The notes under the pieces were generated by a model. The model worked only from the letters and a program-made list of their open reading frames with translations. It did no database searches and was not told where the DNA came from. Of a stretch of 20,509 nt of DNA, positions 1-13,424 are shown in pieces (the first letter of the stretch is position 1; each line of letters starts with the position of its first letter). A program made the position numbers and the translations under genes. Source of the DNA: a virus; IMG/VR virus record IMGVR_UViG_3300022542_000912, positions 1 through 20,509 of that record; one strand, given 5' to 3'.

Positions 1-156
1 AAATCCTGAACTGAGTATTTCGACATCATATATCAACACAGCCCAGCATCCAGCACAAGTAGTGTAAGCTACCACTCTATCTGTATTTTCAAACTGTAAT
101 GTATCTACGCTTATGCGTTTTACTGGCATATCTAGCTCTAATACTATTTTTCTCAT
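1..156 (-). CDS. Partial leftward ORF, unknown function
   Basis: This frame is open for 52 codons on the minus strand and runs off the left edge. The start is ATG at 156-154, preceded by a GGAG ribosome site (complement of 164-167) with 7-nt spacing, which makes a real gene likely despite the short visible length. The protein begins MRKIVLELDMPVKRISVDTL and has a Cys-x-x-Cys pair (TTCAGCWAV, residues 32-40) that might bind metal or be redox active; nothing else identifies it. It is transcribed away from the replication module, and a TATAAT box in the right orientation lies at 317-312. I do not recognise the family. Confidence 0.6.
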   Translation of the reverse strand, partial: MRKIVLELDMPVKRISVDTLQFENTDRVVAYTTCAGCWAVLIYDVEILSSGF

Positions 157-311: not shown

Positions 312-317
312 ATTATA
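312..317 (-). promoter_or_regulatory. Leftward -10 box (TATAAT)
   Basis: The complement of 312-317 reads TATAAT, a consensus -10 hexamer directed at the partial leftward gene. No good -35 hexamer lies 16-18 bp upstream; that position overlaps the edge of the 337-358 palindrome. The box centre is 33 bp from the palindrome centre, nearly mirroring the rightward box at 379-384. Confidence 0.45.
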
Positions 318-336: not shown

Positions 337-358
337 ATATACCTCTTTAGGGGTATAT
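337..358. promoter_or_regulatory. 22-bp palindromic operator, copy 1
   Basis: The half-sites ATATACCTCT (337-346) and AGGGGTATAT (349-358) flank a TT centre and are complementary except for one G/T position. A second copy with the same spacing lies at 4499-4520. The centre (347.5) is 34 bp upstream of the centre of the TATAAT at 379-384, about -43 from the expected transcription start. That is where class II activators bind, and also where a repressor would block the -35 region. The binding protein is not identified; the HTH protein at 418 is a candidate. Confidence 0.6.
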
Positions 359-378
359 CTAAAAAACTAGATGTAGTC

Positions 379-384
379 TATAAT
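379..384 (+). promoter_or_regulatory. Rightward -10 box (TATAAT) of replication operon
   Basis: This is a perfect TATAAT about 34 nt upstream of the GTG start at 418, giving a predicted start of transcription near 391 and a short leader holding the AAGGAG site (402-407). The -35 position (TATCTA, 356-361) is poor and overlaps the palindrome at 337-358, consistent with an activator-dependent promoter. Confidence 0.5.
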
Positions 385-417
385 ATCTGTTGGGCCAGAT
401 TAAGGAGAAATTCAGTC

Positions 418-639
418 GTGCAAAATGAAAGCAACCCTTACCCTGAAGGGAGTATGAGCAAAAAGATTTACGATAATAATTATGAGGAGCCCGGATCCAA
501 AATAATAAACGCGAGCCATAGAGATAGGCTAATTATATATGCTTATATAATGAAAAAACCCATCAAGCTTATAGCAGTTAATATGGAATGTAGCGTATCA
601 ACAGTCAATACAGTATTACTAAAATACGGGATAAAATAA
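418..639 (+). CDS. Small helix-turn-helix protein
   Basis: This is a 73-residue protein from a GTG start, with AAGGAG at 402-407 and 10-nt spacing. The N-terminal 35 residues are polar and probably flexible. The C-terminal half looks like a minimal helix-turn-helix: a first helix near RDRLIIYAY, then KLIAVNME (50-57), a turn at Cys58, and a candidate recognition helix VSTVNTVLLKY (60-70). As the first gene after the palindromic operator, it is a plausible regulator of its own operon and of the second operator site, but this is inference. It ends one base before the primase start, so the two are likely translationally coupled. An internal in-frame ATG (MSKK) has its purine-rich site too close and is a poorer start. 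Confidence 0.65.
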   Translation: MQNESNPYPEGSMSKKIYDNNYEEPGSKIINASHRDRLIIYAYIMKKPIKLIAVNMECSVSTVNTVLLKYGIK

Positions 640-640
640 A

Positions 641-3013
641 TTGAAATTCAACGCTAATGACGATATACAGATAGCAATGGCTCGTGGTAGCCAGATGAAT
701 ATACGAGTTATAGCAGAGAAAATGAGTTTCCGCGAGTTCGCAGAGTTTTGTAGTAAACCACAGAAAGGAGAGAAGCATGAAGCGTATTTCCTACGAGGAG
801 TGCCAGAAGTTGAAGAATCGTATCAAAGCGGAAGCGGTAAAATGTACTATGACGGCAGGTTTAGGCATGACAGTAGCATTAATTGCGCTGACTTCCTTAT
901 TATTGACGCTGATCATAGTGACAATAGTCCTAGTGAGTGCCATGCTATTCTCAGATCTAATGATATAGTACATTTTATTTATACCACACACAGCCATACT
1001 GCCGAAAAGAATAATTTCCGCGTTGTCATCCCTTGTCATGTGAGTTGTAAGGCTAATATGCCTGAGACGGCTAAAAAGATCATAGAATTATTCGACGGTG
1101 GTATAAAATATGTAAAAGAAATGGGTACATGGAGCCAGGCTTGGTTCCTTCCAACTAGAGACAATCCAGAAGACGGGTTATTTGAACACTACTACTATAG
1201 CAAAGGAGAGGTATATGAAGAAGTGGTGGGGCGAGATGAAACCAGCTCTGACAGCACTCACAATACTGATAGTAGTGATACCAGTGGTGTTACAGATCAT
1301 AACTCGATTGATAATGTAATAGAAACAATGCGGGAATATAAGGAAGGGACTCACCATGCTATGAGAACTTATAGTTATGGTATGATTCAAGATGGAGTTC
1401 CGGCCAAAACAGTAATTGAGACAATGAGGAGCATAATGCATGAACATAGATCTGACAGTAATCGCAATGAAACAAGATATGGAGAAATTGAAAGGATCGT
1501 TAAAGGCGCAAGAGTTAATGATAACAACGATTGCTCGATCTTTGGAGGAGATGGTGAGGAGTCAAATTCTAATGGTAGCGGAGTTAAGGGAGTTGAGGGA
1601 GGAATCGGCAATGGTGACTCGAATGATGAGGAAGCACAAGATGGCAGTGGATCTATTCGAGAAGGAAATGAAGAAGGATCAAGAGGAAGAGAAGAGATAT
1701 ATGGAAAGCAGTTAGCTTGGCCTCCAGGATTAATGGGAGAATTAGCTAAAGCAGTATATGAATTCTCACCTTATCCTAATAGAACGATAAGTATTGTAAC
1801 GGGACTAGGGTTAGTGGCTGGTATAGCAGGTCGCCGGTTCAATGTAAGCGGAAATGGCTTGAATCTTTATATAACATTGCTAATGGATACTGGAGGTGGT
1901 AAAAGTGTCATATCAAAATTTATTAATCGCGTACTTAATGACGCTAGTCTGTTTACTGGGGCTAATATATTTACTGGATCTGGAAGGTACACTGGACCCA
2001 AGGCTCTCATGGATGATCTTAATCATAAACGATGTATTGTTTCTGTATTCACTGAAGCTGGGTTTATGTTCAGATCAAAAAGCGGGGACCAAGACGGATT
2101 GACAAGAAGTATATTGGACTTGTATGGTAGCTCAGGTTATGGATGCGTTTCCGCTGGTGGAAGTTATTCTAATGATAAAAATGATATACCAGCTGTAGCA
2201 TCGCCCTGTTTTAGTATGATCAATGAATCTACACCAGATGTATTCCTTGAAACCATAAGAGATGGGGATAAAACCGGTGAAATCAATAGAATGACCGTAT
2301 TAAGGGTTGAACAAGAGGTATTTAAGCTAAATAGAACCATGAAATATGATATAAGCGGAAAACTGATGGAGAAGATAAAGCAGCTTATGACCAGATGTAA
2401 TGTAACTCAGACAAAAGATGATGCTGATGTTACAAATTTCCGCGTTACTGATGAGATGTATGGCTTTGCTGATGAAATGAAAAGGACTGCATGGGATTGT
2501 AAGGAAGAGGATCCAATCAGATTTAGTATGATGCAAAGATCAGCAGAGAAAGTGTTTAAGATTGCATCACTACTTACTGTGCTAAACTCTTCTGGGATAA
2601 AAGGAGAAAGAGAATTGGACATTGATCAAGATGCATGGGATTGGGCACGAGATTTCCATACACATGAAATGGAAGGATTAGAAACATTCTTCAACAGGGA
2701 TGATGATTCAGATCCATTTGTATTAGCATGTTCTATTGTATACCCAGTAGTCAAGAAGATACTAACACAAGGCTATAAAGATAGAAAGATGCAACCTAGC
2801 AGCATGCAAGCAAAGAAGAACAGATTTCCGCTCGCTATGTTGAGGCGTGCTTTGAAGAACAATAGGTGTGTGAAAGCCTTAGGCAATAAGAATGTTAGTG
2901 GTATAGATAGGATGATTAAATGGATGAAAGAAGAGAAATATTTGAAGATGGTCTTGGATATACAAGCTAATGTCGTTGAAGTAAACAAGAGTTTTCTAGA
3001 GCTTGGAGAATAG
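641..3013 (+). CDS. AEP-type primase fused to DUF3987-like helicase
   Basis: This 790-residue protein probably primes and unwinds phage DNA. Residues about 40-200 resemble an archaeo-eukaryotic primase (prim-pol) core: metal-binding DAD at 89-91 in FLIIDADHSD, a His-rich stretch with H117 and H119 followed by R127, and SQAWFLPTRD (165-174). Residues 225-292 resemble a PriCT helical domain. A low-complexity Gly/Ser/Asn/Glu linker spans about 303-350. The C-terminal part has a degenerate Walker A, MDTGGGKS (415-422), TEAG (471-474) as a Walker B-like site and SPCFSMINES (521-530) as a sensor-like strand, in the manner of DUF3987 helicases. The start is TTG, one base after the HTH gene stop, with only a weak ribosome site (GGGAT), so coupling to the upstream gene is likely; the exact start is uncertain, but ATG at 677 has no better site. 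Confidence 0.85.
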   Translation: MKFNANDDIQIAMARGSQMNIRVIAEKMSFREFAEFCSKPQKGEKHEAYFLRGVPEVEESYQSGSGKMYYDGRFRHDSSINCADFLIIDADHSDNSPSECHAILRSNDIVHFIYTTHSHTAEKNNFRVVIPCHVSCKANMPETAKKIIELFDGGIKYVKEMGTWSQAWFLPTRDNPEDGLFEHYYYSKGEVYEEVVGRDETSSDSTHNTDSSDTSGVTDHNSIDNVIETMREYKEGTHHAMRTYSYGMIQDGVPAKTVIETMRSIMHEHRSDSNRNETRYGEIERIVKGARVNDNNDCSIFGGDGEESNSNGSGVKGVEGGIGNGDSNDEEAQDGSGSIREGNEEGSRGREEIYGKQLAWPPGLMGELAKAVYEFSPYPNRTISIVTGLGLVAGIAGRRFNVSGNGLNLYITLLMDTGGGKSVISKFINRVLNDASLFTGANIFTGSGRYTGPKALMDDLNHKRCIVSVFTEAGFMFRSKSGDQDGLTRSILDLYGSSGYGCVSAGGSYSNDKNDIPAVASPCFSMINESTPDVFLETIRDGDKTGEINRMTVLRVEQEVFKLNRTMKYDISGKLMEKIKQLMTRCNVTQTKDDADVTNFRVTDEMYGFADEMKRTAWDCKEEDPIRFSMMQRSAEKVFKIASLLTVLNSSGIKGERELDIDQDAWDWARDFHTHEMEGLETFFNRDDDSDPFVLACSIVYPVVKKILTQGYKDRKMQPSSMQAKKNRFPLAMLRRALKNNRCVKALGNKNVSGIDRMIKWMKEEKYLKMVLDIQANVVEVNKSFLELGE

Positions 3014-3265
3014 ATATCTCCCGCCTATCTCCTCCTGACTCCTCAAATGCGCCTGTATTTATCTATAGATATCAGGTACTTAGGACGAAAAAAGACGAAA
3101 GGGGGAAAATTTTCGGGGGGGCGCGCGAGCGAGAGAAAATGGCCGAAAGGGAACGATGGCACACAAAAGCTTCCCTTTTTACTCTAAGTTACTAATATAT
3201 ATATAGTTTCTTAGGAGATTATAGGGAGATATCCAGGGTATCACATGAGATAAGGGGAAAACACG
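3014..3265. other. Intergenic region after primase
   Basis: This 252-base gap has an AT-rich background with a short GC-rich island (about 3115-3130, beginning with seven G) and the palindrome GAAAATTTTC. It holds a likely terminator hairpin (3146-3180) and, near its end, CAGGGTATCACA (3234-3245), a 12-mer also found at 9541-9552 upstream of the capsid gene. I see no convincing gene. Confidence 0.5.
3146..3180 (+). terminator. Possible rho-independent terminator after primase
   Basis: AAAGGGAA (3146-3153) pairs perfectly with TTCCCTTT (3171-3178) across a 17-nt loop and runs into a T tract (TTCCCTTTTT). The stem is only 8 bp with a large loop, so termination may be partial, leaving some read-through into the resolvase gene. 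Confidence 0.4.
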
Positions 3266-3673
3266 TTGATTTTAGAATTAGTCTTAGCTTGGCCACCAAG
3301 TTCGGGGTCATATTACGCTTATAACAGGCGAACAAGGTATGTAACTGCAAAAGGTAAGCAGTACCAACAAATAGTAGCGGAAGATGTTCACGAACAGTGC
3401 GGGCAGGGCCTAATGCTTGAAGCTCCTCTTGAACTTTCCGCCATCTTTTACCCACCAAATAAAGGGATTTGGGACTTCGACAACCATCTTAAGGCATTAC
3501 AGGATGCATTAACACTAAGTAAGGTGTGGACGGATGATTCCGCCATAAGTCAGATGCATTGTTACACCGGTGTGGTAGTTAAGGGCGGCAGGATATTACT
3601 ACGGATAGAACCCGGCGGGCCTAGCCTACCCTTAGAGCTACAAGGAGGCTCACCCTTCGACTTTCTCGAATAA
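3266..3673 (+). CDS. rusA: RusA-family Holliday junction resolvase
   Basis: This 135-residue protein belongs to the RusA family of homodimeric, metal-dependent endonucleases that cut four-way DNA junctions during recombination or before packaging. The family signature is WDFDNHLKALQDAL followed by WTDDSAI. The acidic residues fall at D70, D72 and D91 with K76, the same numbering as the catalytic set known for E. coli RusA (120 aa), so an active enzyme is expected. The start is TTG with an AAGGGG site at 8-nt spacing; no in-frame ATG is available upstream. A Gly/Pro/Leu-rich tail of about 20 residues extends past the usual family length. It is the last gene of the rightward replication module and converges with the leftward small-ORF operon. 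Confidence 0.92.
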   Translation: MILELVLAWPPSSGSYYAYNRRTRYVTAKGKQYQQIVAEDVHEQCGQGLMLEAPLELSAIFYPPNKGIWDFDNHLKALQDALTLSKVWTDDSAISQMHCYTGVVVKGGRILLRIEPGGPSLPLELQGGSPFDFLE

Positions 3674-3692
3674 TATAGGCTAGGAGTAGGGT

Positions 3693-3720
3693 ATAAGAAA
3701 GGGCCTCTTAGAGAGGCCCT
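3693..3720 (-). terminator. Hairpin terminator between convergent operons
   Basis: AGGGCCTCT (3700-3708) and AGAGGCCCT (3712-3720) form a perfect 9-bp stem with a TAG loop. Read leftward the stem is followed by TTTCTTAT, so it suits the leftward small-ORF operon best. Read rightward it has an A-rich upstream flank but no T tract, so it would act weakly after rusA. Confidence 0.65.
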
Positions 3721-3730
3721 ACGGAAGCCA

Positions 3731-3811
3731 CTAGATAGGGAACATCAGAATAAGATAACCACAAAATGCCATCATAGCACCCAGCACTACACTTTCTATA
3801 AAGTTCGTCAC
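3731..3811 (-). CDS. 26-residue single-span membrane peptide
   Basis: This very short ORF starts at GTG (3811-3809) and ends at TAG (3733-3731). Its ribosome site is a perfect AAGGAG (complement of 3819-3824) with 7-nt spacing, the same spacing as the two upstream leftward ORFs. The peptide starts MTNFIES and continues as one hydrophobic stretch (VVLGAMMAFCGYLILMFPI), long enough for a single transmembrane helix. It lies between an 11-bp hairpin (3832-3857) and the operon terminator (3700-3720), so it has its own translation signals inside a defined transcript. A holin-like peptide, a type I toxin-like peptide or a small membrane regulator are all possible; the sequence cannot decide. Confidence rests on the ribosome site and composition, not homology. 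Confidence 0.55.
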   Translation of the reverse strand: MTNFIESVVLGAMMAFCGYLILMFPI

Positions 3812-3831
3812 GTCACAACTCCTTATAAATT

Positions 3832-3857
3832 CCCTAAGCCTAGAATTAGGCTTAGGG
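3832..3857 (-). repeat. 11-bp perfect hairpin in leftward operon
   Basis: CCCTAAGCCTA (3832-3842) and TAGGCTTAGGG (3847-3857) pair perfectly around GAAT. It lies between the 105-aa ORF and the ribosome site of the 26-aa peptide. Read leftward it is followed by AATTTATAAGGAG, only weakly T-rich, so an mRNA processing or attenuation element is as likely as a terminator. Confidence 0.6.
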
Positions 3858-3865
3858 GTTATAGT

Positions 3866-4183
3866 TTAGGCTAAGTCGTTATGAATCGAGTTAGCCAACT
3901 CGGCGATACCTTCGAAAAGCTTAAGGTAGCGGTAGTCGTTATCACTACCGTTCTCCTTAACGAACGCATCGACTTCTTCCGCGCTCTTTACACCTTCCCG
4001 TAGGTAGGCGTAGAACTTAGGCTTAAAACCGCGAGCGTTTTTATTAGCACCGTACTCCTTCCAATAGCCTAGGCTATCCTTAAAGCTACACCCGGCTTTT
4101 ATTAAAGCCTCGATGGCCTCTCCTTTATTAGAGTCGTTATCTAGCGTTATATCGCGAAATTCTAGGTTAGTTAATTTAGACAT
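3866..4183 (-). CDS. 105-residue protein of unknown function
   Basis: The ATG start at 4183-4181 is preceded by GAGGAG (complement of 4191-4196) with 7-nt spacing, inside a 16-nt leader repeat shared with the ORF at 4420. The protein is soluble, charged and probably helical: a helix-rich unit EAIEALIKAGCSFKDSLGYW (22-41), a basic middle (GANKNARGFKPKFYAY, 45-60), then an acidic helix (SAEEVDAFVKENGS, 67-80) and a C-terminal helix. The stop codon lies inside a TTAGCCTAA motif. Codons are strongly biased to TTA, CTA and TCG-containing triplets, unlike the late genes. The first unit resembles residues 16-44 of the 46-aa ORF next to it, so the two may be paralogues. I do not recognise a family; regulator, inhibitor of a host system or replication accessory are all open. 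Confidence 0.8.
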   Translation of the reverse strand: MSKLTNLEFRDITLDNDSNKGEAIEALIKAGCSFKDSLGYWKEYGANKNARGFKPKFYAYLREGVKSAEEVDAFVKENGSDNDYRYLKLFEGIAELANSIHNDLA

Positions 4184-4189
4184 TTTATA

Positions 4190-4205
4190 TCTCCTCGTTT
4201 TTAGG
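4190..4205 (-). repeat. Translation-initiation leader repeat, copy 1
   Basis: TCTCCTCGTTTTTAGG (plus strand) contains the GAGGAG site of the 105-aa ORF on the other strand. The identical 16-mer occurs at 4427-4442 before the 46-aa ORF, and the match continues for five more bases with one difference. Confidence 0.7.
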
Positions 4206-4224
4206 TTAAGAATTTAACCCTTAG

Positions 4225-4248
4225 CTTTAGCCTAATTTTAGGCTAAAG
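4225..4248 (-). repeat. 11-bp hairpin of inverted TTAGSCTAA motifs
   Basis: CTTTAGCCTAA (4225-4235) and TTAGGCTAAAG (4238-4248) are perfect inverted repeats with only TT between them. It lies between the 46-aa and 105-aa leftward ORFs. It could be an operator formed of two facing motif copies or a hairpin in the transcript. Confidence 0.6.
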
Positions 4249-4254
4249 GTAAAG

Positions 4255-4273
4255 GCTAGGGCTTAGCCCTAGC
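4255..4273 (-). repeat. Inverted repeat just after the 46-aa ORF
   Basis: GCTAGGGCT (4255-4263) and AGCCCTAGC (4265-4273) are complementary around one base; as RNA this gives about 7 bp with a 5-nt loop. It begins 7 bases past the stop of the 46-aa ORF and, read leftward, is followed by CTTTACCTTT, so it may be a weak or conditional terminator before the 105-aa ORF. Confidence 0.5.
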
Positions 4274-4279
4274 TTAAAG

Positions 4280-4420
4280 TTAGCCTAATTCTTCTAGCGC
4301 TAGCCTATACGCTTCTTCCGCTTCTTCGAAGCTTAATCCCGAATCTACTATCGCTAGTATAGCTAGCTCTTTAGTAGGGTGCCCTAGTACTAATTCTATA
4401 ATATAGTCGTCGACGTTAAT
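4280..4420 (-). CDS. 46-residue ORF with probable ATT start
   Basis: The frame from 4420 to 4280 encodes INVDDYIIELVLGHPTKELA followed by a helical acidic segment ending in SFEEAEEAYRLALEELG. No in-frame ATG, GTG or TTG exists, but ATT at 4420-4418 lies exactly 7 nt after a GAGGAG site (complement of 4428-4433), the same site and spacing as the 105-aa ORF downstream. This points to initiation at ATT, which is rare but known (infC of E. coli). Residues 16-44 resemble residues 20-45 of the 105-aa protein, sharing an A-I-x-A core and a Gly-x-Ser-Phe turn. The stop overlaps a TTAGCCTAA motif. It is the first gene of the leftward operon, with a -10 box at 4478-4473 and a 5' hairpin at 4444-4460. 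Alternatively it is an untranslated leader with a fossil ORF. Confidence 0.5.
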   Translation of the reverse strand: MNVDDYIIELVLGHPTKELAILAIVDSGLSFEEAEEAYRLALEELG

Positions 4421-4426
4421 AGCCCT

Positions 4427-4442
4427 TCTCCTCGTTTTTAGG
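4427..4442 (-). repeat. Translation-initiation leader repeat, copy 2
   Basis: This is the second copy of TCTCCTCGTTTTTAGG, 237 bp from the first, carrying the GAGGAG site of the ATT-start ORF. The duplication of leader plus ribosome site suggests that the two small ORFs arose by duplication or share a translational control signal. Confidence 0.7.
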
Positions 4443-4443
4443 C

Positions 4444-4460
4444 TAAGGAAGTATTCCTTA
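4444..4460 (-). repeat. Hairpin at the 5' end of the leftward transcript
   Basis: TAAGGAA (4444-4450) and TTCCTTA (4454-4460) pair perfectly around GTA. With transcription predicted to start near 4466, this 7-bp hairpin would sit close to the 5' end of the leftward mRNA, where it could stabilise the message or bind a regulator. Confidence 0.45.
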
Positions 4461-4472
4461 ACCGTTAAGCTA

Positions 4473-4478
4473 ATTTTA
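4473..4478 (-). promoter_or_regulatory. Leftward -10 box (TAAAAT) of small-ORF operon
   Basis: The complement of 4473-4478 reads TAAAAT, one change from the -10 consensus. Its centre is exactly 34 bp downstream of the centre of the palindrome at 4499-4520, the same geometry as TATAAT and the palindrome at 337-358. The -35 position (TATATT) is poor and overlaps the palindrome. Confidence 0.5.
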
Positions 4479-4498
4479 GGCTCGTATCGAAGCGAAAT

Positions 4499-4520
4499 AT
4501 ATACCTCTAAAGAGATATAA
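4499..4520. promoter_or_regulatory. 22-bp palindromic operator, copy 2
   Basis: The left half-site ATATACCTCT (4499-4508) is identical to that of copy 1; the right half AGAGATATAA (4511-4520) is close. A 2-bp AT centre separates them in both copies, and AATATATACCTCT (13 bp) is shared exactly. It lies immediately upstream of the leftward -10 box. Confidence 0.6.
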
Positions 4521-4531
4521 GGCTAATTAAT

Positions 4532-4552
4532 TTAGCCTAAAGTTAGCCTAAA
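4532..4552. repeat. Tandem TTAGCCTAAA motifs, 11-bp period
   Basis: TTAGCCTAAA occurs at 4532-4541 and 4543-4552, about one helical turn apart, between the operator and the iteron array. The core TTAGSCTAA also occurs exactly at 3864-3872, 4227-4235, 4238-4246, 4280-4288 and 4438-4446, all inside the leftward operon region. Confidence 0.6.
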
Positions 4553-4560
4553 TCGACGCG

Positions 4561-4678
4561 CACCACCTACGTAAGCACGCTACTTAAGTGCACCACGTAG
4601 GTACCAGATTACACCACGTAAGCACTAGACTACACAAGTACACCACGTAAGCATTATCCTACCATACGTAAGCACAAC
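4561..4678 (+). repeat. Five iteron-like repeats (CACCACGTAAGCA type)
   Basis: Units beginning CACCACGTAAGCA or close variants start at about 4561, 4591, 4612, 4641 and 4662, at intervals of 30, 21, 29 and 21 bp. The core ACGTAAGCA is exact at 4569-4577, 4616-4624, 4645-4653 and 4666-4674, and degenerate (ACGTAGGTA) at 4595-4603. Intervals near 21 and 29-30 bp are close to two and three helical turns, so the sites would lie on roughly one face of the DNA. This resembles iterons of a replication origin or an activator array for the late operon; no cognate protein can be named. Confidence 0.6.
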
Positions 4679-4841
4679 CTATATATGGAAAACAGATATG
4701 CTTATCCGATTAGCGGCCCCTACCCCTGGTTTCGCGCGCACACCAATATGTTCTGGGGTCACTCGCATAATTTTCATACTTCCCCCATTTTATAACCACT
4801 AATATATTCTGAAAAATCATTTCAATTCTCCCCTTTACTTT

Positions 4842-13208: not shown

Positions 13209-13424
13209 ATGGCTATAAAAAACACTATGAATAAAAGAGATGTTGCAAGATATCATAAAATGCTTGCCGATGATATTAGCATCAAGGAGATTTCAAAAGC
13301 AATGTTGATTTCAGAAAAGACACTCAGAATATTTACACCTGAAGCTGTAGATAAGATCAAGAAAAAAGACATTAGTGATCGCAAAGCTATTCTTCAAAAT
13401 GCCGGCAAAAAGGAAGATAAATAA
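13209..13424 (+). CDS. Small basic helical protein, possible HTH
   Basis: This 71-residue, Lys-rich protein has a good AAGGAG site. Residues 20-42 (ADDISIKEISKAMLISEKTLRIF) have the shape of a helix-turn-helix: SIKEISKAM, a turn, and SEKTLRIF. Short proteins of this kind often precede tail tubular protein A in podoviruses. A structural or a regulatory role is possible; the sequence does not decide. Confidence 0.6.
   Translation: MAIKNTMNKRDVARYHKMLADDISIKEISKAMLISEKTLRIFTPEAVDKIKKKDISDRKAILQNAGKKEDK

Follow-up and report, generated by a model that had tools for sequence, protein, structure and literature searches.

Near-palindromes at a fixed distance from two phage promoters resemble NarL/NarP elements and suggest a link between replication genes and host nitrate respiration

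The response regulators NarL and NarP activate transcription from -40 to -49 at napF and from -38 to -47 at yeaR (PMC4549865), and an improved single ogt site activates from -44.5. The output domain of NarL was crystallised on the engineered site TACCCCTAAAGGGGTA (PMC4549865). Phage promoters are also known to use a host response regulator: cyanophage genes are placed under host PhoBR by Zeng and Chisholm (2012), as cited in PMC10976474, and host PhoB binds the promoter of the S-PM2d DNA polymerase gene (PMC10976474). At the Pm promoter of phage Mu, Mor acts from a site centred at -43.5 that replaces the -35 box; this site is 16 bp long, with two 5-bp inverted repeats and a 6-bp G/C-rich spacer (PMC4390567). 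No paper on Nar-controlled phage promoters was among the matches listed in a literature search for NarP and phage.

The locus described here shares with the class II promoters of Escherichia coli napF, yeaR and ogt1052 the inverted heptamers, the 2-bp centre and, as predicted from the -10 spacing, a site centre in the range of about -42.5 to -44.5; with napF it also shares the 34-bp distance between the site centre and a -10-like hexamer. Unlike these promoters, it serves a phage replication operon and a function-unassigned 105-aa gene, its half-sites mostly carry an extra conserved TA, and its nitrate control is predicted. As in the cyanophage case, a phage promoter would use a host response regulator, here proposed from sequence; the regulator would however belong to the NarL/FixJ and not the OmpR family, the cue would be nitrate/nitrite and not phosphate, and the phages are unrelated. 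The dyad, with a predicted centre at -43.5 in place of a -35 box, recalls Mor at Pm, but half-site sequence, spacing and length differ and no Mor-family activator was found among the proteins scanned.

The window, i.e., the whole stretch of 20,509 nucleotides that was analysed, is a 20.5-kb virus record encoding primase/helicase, RusA, terminase, portal, capsid and tail proteins, with no known RNA families or tRNAs detected in it. Among cultured phages, those nearest to it are Vibrio phage VA-RY-3 and Cronobacter phage Ss1 (terminase 52-53% identical). Related metagenome contigs, some of which cover only part of the arrangement, share a gene order that runs from a divergent leftward operon through control region 1, a small ORF, primase and RusA to a leftward 105-aa-type gene, control region 2, and the small and large terminase genes. 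The features of the window are collected in Table 1. The 73-aa ORF gave no match to Pfam at E<=0.05. The 46-aa ORF is missing from the aligned stretch of contig L004; it has a good ribosome site, yet an ATT start codon, and its coding DNA is nearly free of TG and CA.

Table 1. Coordinates of the sites, promoter elements and genes (window positions unless a contig is named).
Feature	Position	Strand	Sequence or remark
Divergent leftward gene, open at window end	1-156	-	Begins MRKIVLELDMPVKRISVDTLQFE...; divergent layout matched in L012
Second -10 box at site 1	312-317	-	TATAAT; 33 bp from site 1 centre
Palindrome, putative operator 1	337-358	none	ATATACCTCTTTAGGGGTATAT
Site 1 7-2-7 core, NarL/NarP-like	340-355		TACCTCT-TT-AGGGGTA; 14/14 to TACYYMT-NN-AKRRGTA
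-10 box, rightward primase operon	379-384	+	TATAAT; 34 bp from site 1 centre
73-aa ORF, HTH-like C-terminus	418-639	+	First gene after site 1
790-aa DNA primase/helicase	641-3013	+	phrog_3022, E 3.6e-65
RusA-like Holliday junction resolvase	3266-3673	+
105-aa gene	3866-4183	-	Homologues after site in L004, L006 (two copies) and L012
46-aa ORF	4280-4420	-	Possible ATT start, AGGAG 7 nt upstream; first after site 2
-10 box, leftward	4473-4478	-	TAAAAT; 34 bp from site 2 centre; GATAAT at aligned place in L004
Palindrome, putative operator 2	4499-4520	none	ATATACCTCTAAAGAGATATAA
Site 2 7-2-7 core	4502-4517		TACCTCT-AA-AGAGATA; 13/14; site kept in L004 at 2068-2089
Relatives of the 105-aa protein's domain	L046 1938-2534; L054 100-723; L053 1982-2611

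An earlier note on this DNA had reported two matching 22-bp palindromes, each 34 bp from a -10 box, and had taken them for the sites of one phage regulator. Both palindromes and both -10 boxes were located exactly where the note had placed them, and at both promoters the distance from palindrome centre to -10 centre is exactly 34 bp. Symmetry is imperfect, so that these are near-palindromes: complementary half-site pairs number 9 out of 10 at site 1 and 8 out of 10 at site 2. With one of the two inverted, the sites are identical at 19 of 22 positions, and the 13-bp exact core that they were said to share, AATATATACCTCT, is present at 334-346 and 4496-4508. The note had considered a chance pairing unlikely. 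Indeed, 300 first-order simulated windows that retained the local dinucleotide composition contained no pair of 22-mers as symmetric as these and identical at 19 or more of 22 positions, whether or not the -10 spacing was equal; the real window contains one, with equal -10 spacing. The observation was thus confirmed, and it was also understated. A second TATAAT, leftward and at the opposite flank of site 1, is absent from the note and points to the divergent gene starting at position 156.

The arrangement was then found in relatives. In L004 (terminase 96% identical), ATATATCTCTAAAGGGGTATAT occupies the place aligned with site 2, and GATAAT replaces TAAAAT. In L006 (69%), both of the two 105-aa-type genes have a site upstream, exactly 34 bp from TATAAT or TATACT. 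A single site precedes the 105-aa homologue of L012, with TATACT at 34 bp; L012 also has a weaker site at its replication promoter (11/14, with a -10 box at 34 bp, P 0.011). Additional weaker half-site clusters lie upstream in L006 and L012, resembling multi-site Nar promoters. No such sites were found in L011, which has the same gene order and a primase 51% identical, or in the cultured phages Ss1 and VA-RY-3. The check that the note had proposed, whether relatives with the genes keep the palindromes, gave a mixed outcome: L004, L006/L010 and L012/L013 retain them; L011, Ss1 and VA-RY-3 do not.

All six promoters, from four contig lineages, have, at exactly 34 bp, a -10 box that matches in 5/6 positions or better. 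Their summed -10 score is 32/36 at this distance, compared with 22 at the next-best distance and about 10 at most others; the six sites are partly dependent, since the window and L004 are close relatives and two sites come from L006. A search for a -35 box at 15-19 bp spacing gave a best match of only 2-3/6 in the six promoters, and an extended -10 is present in L012 only. The -35 boxes are thus as poor as the earlier note had stated, none exceeding 3/6, which fits activation. From the -10 spacing, the site centre is predicted at about -43.5 relative to the transcript start, within the napF/yeaR/ogt range, and both palindromes overlap the -35 position. The proposal that one regulator controls both promoters, as an activator, is well supported by the constant 34-bp distance in six out of six promoters, the lack of a -35 box and the conservation.

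Scored against the published consensus plus a -10 box at 34 bp, the six promoters each beat their own simulated region (P <0.001 to 0.007), as did the L012 primase promoter (P 0.011); both L011 promoters did no better than simulated regions. Across IMG/VR, the 7-2-7 element with TATANT was found 13 times at the 34-bp spacing and 13 times at a spacing 5 bp longer, i.e., without enrichment. On this control we rejected the idea that phages in general favour such promoters; the arrangement belongs to one lineage. A wider palindrome pattern occurred in 21 IMG/VR stretches, mostly in unrelated phages.

The inner 16 bp of the palindromes fit the 7-2-7 element, composed of two TACYYMT heptamers inverted around 2 bp (TACYYMT-NN-AKRRGTA). 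Consensus scores are 14/14 for site 1 and for L012, 13/14 for site 2 and for L004, and 12/14 for L006; this is the published NarL/NarP element. Site 1 and the crystallised NarL site agree in all but one base (15/16 identical). A similar pattern with a -10 box was found at only 5 places in 84,980 genomes, one of them upstream of an Enterovibrio gene whose product reads as NapF, and this napF site provided the lead to the NarL/NarP 7-2-7 element. A strict pattern was present in 20 of 81 Vibrionaceae genomes. Some of its sites precede genes whose translations, read by eye, look like NapF, NapD, CcmA, a TorC/NapC-like cytochrome and PfkA; others fall within long ORFs and could have arisen by chance. 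The nap, ccm and torYZ genes are predicted NarP targets in Vibrionaceae (PMC1805755). The exact site 1 core also precedes a ccmA-like gene by 230 bp (L095), though within another ORF. In E. coli, the 7-2-7 site of napF is separated by 34 bp from a TATCTT; at yeaR the consensus scan gave a 10/14 site only, and yeaR was dropped as a positive control. The flanking TA (TATACC) is conserved on most phage half-sites, is not required by the heptamer and is missing from most Vibrionaceae sites. It could point to another regulator.

Our best reading is that these are activator-dependent class II promoters for a presumed NarP/NarL-type regulator of the host, rather than for a phage regulator. We consider it fairly probable that a dimeric response regulator of the NarL/FixJ family, in all likelihood host NarP (or NarL), binds the palindromes. 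Regulator identity, activation and nitrate dependence are inferred from sequence and geometry. The regulator dimer, at a class II position of about -43.5, would stand in for the missing -35 contact; once phosphorylated, it would bring in host RNA polymerase at both the primase-RusA operon and the leftward 105-aa operon, and at site 1 it may also serve the divergent leftward promoter. Entry into replication would in this way be coupled to the state of nitrate/nitrite respiration in the host. The data suggest a tie between the replication genes of the virus and host nitrate respiration; that a phage lineage has put both core replication and accessory operons under host NarP/NarL, so that infection follows anaerobic nitrate respiration, is conceivable, at somewhat less than an even chance. 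Against this reading, the cultured relatives VA-RY-3 and Ss1 lack the sites, though they infect Vibrio and Cronobacter, members of groups that have Nar regulation. If true, the borrowing of host two-component systems would extend from PhoBR and phosphate to another family and cue, and infection outcome would be predicted to shift with nitrate and oxygen.

The regulator could also be encoded by the phage, as the earlier note had proposed. The motif fits the host NarL/NarP 7-2-7 element, and the 73-aa and 105-aa proteins, its two candidates, fail, leaving that proposal unsupported. The 73-aa HTH protein is not conserved: its L012 counterpart has 53 aa and no HTH, though L012 keeps the sites. The 105-aa protein is predicted to be all-helical and no DNA-binding relative was found; with no significant PDB fold match either, it was rejected as the regulator. 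Seven phage records, among them the 32-kb L012 contig with its leftward operon, contained no GerE/LuxR-type HTH above the family cut-off; the window's own leftward operon lies outside the window, and a phage regulator could be there. The nearest candidate is the window's 71-aa LuxR/GerE-like HTH protein, which might bind the sites constitutively, in the way that the isolated NarL output domain can. Its best PDB match is GerE, but its GerE score (E 0.00037, 20.5 bits) is under the 23.5-bit cut-off, its gene (13209-13424, + strand) lies among late structural genes, and the LuxR-like recognition helix is gone from the L010 and L005 homologues, yet the L010/L006 lineage retains the sites; we regard this explanation as very improbable. 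Given the weakness of this candidate and the absence of GerE-type proteins over the cut-off in the phage records, host NarP or NarL is preferred.

An activator encoded outside the window and acting at -43.5 as Mor does at Pm would have the same geometry and could account for the conserved flanking TA, which NarL does not need. The sites, however, do not fit the Mor site, no protein among those scanned passed the cut-off for the Mor/C family (PF08765), and the sole weak match, a 119-aa ORF (E 0.0097), belongs to L011, a phage without the sites. L012 does encode a 133-aa MarR-like winged-helix protein, and Ss1 and VA-RY-3 lack both this protein and the sites, but it was set aside, having no relative in the viral contigs and phage records searched except in the near-identical L013. 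Such an activator would also make the NarL/NarP match a coincidence, and we find it unlikely. The overlap with the -35 position would equally suit operators of a phage or host repressor that blocks polymerase there, and NarL itself represses elsewhere, e.g., at frdA (PMC4549865). Yet promoters with no -35 above 3/6, and with an extended -10 in L012 only, offer little basal activity to repress, and an exact 34-bp spacing is expected for polymerase contact, not for blocking; repression thus seems a distinctly unlikely account. Short imperfect palindromes are common in AT-rich intergenic DNA, and chance palindromes beside chance -10 boxes might be expected on that ground; their recurrence at the same genes, with the same spacing, in diverged relatives contradicts this and makes chance scarcely credible.

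The 105-aa protein gave only two high-probability viral fold matches, A0A096XUS6 and A0A8E5XKS9 (E about 0.04), whose lengths and C-terminal resemblance fit the SS1_35-type proteins of Ss1 and VA-RY-3. It shares a domain with two function-unassigned proteins of these phages, SS1_01 (a likeness seen by eye) and the SS1_35-type (linked through a 198-aa protein of L046, by tblastn and by eye).

The control regions also have an unusual composition. TG and CA dinucleotides are nearly absent locally on both strands, with TA in excess, at 3866-4555 and 160-372 of the window; at 4184-4555, one TG/CA was observed versus 43 expected (z -8.2). The depletion extends over a large part of the 105-aa coding sequence, and is seen again in the matching control regions of L006 (1451-2300) and L012 (11176-11825) and in the cultured relatives VA-RY-3 (L017; 5776-6150 and 6751-7250) and Ss1 (L016; 1-300). 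No unrelated contig among those compared showed the depletion, and L011 is without it at that locus.

The interval from site 2 to the small terminase gene contains about five imperfect copies of TACGTAAGCAC (window 4560-4680), partly retained in L004, which are possible replication or packaging iterons. An intergenic 15-mer before RusA, TTACTAATATATATA, is perfectly conserved (window 3189-3203, L004 996, L012 10423, L017 6837) and is a possible origin or early promoter. In VA-RY-3 (L017) it precedes a different operon, and a similar AT-rich stretch lies at the junction of the Ss1 record.
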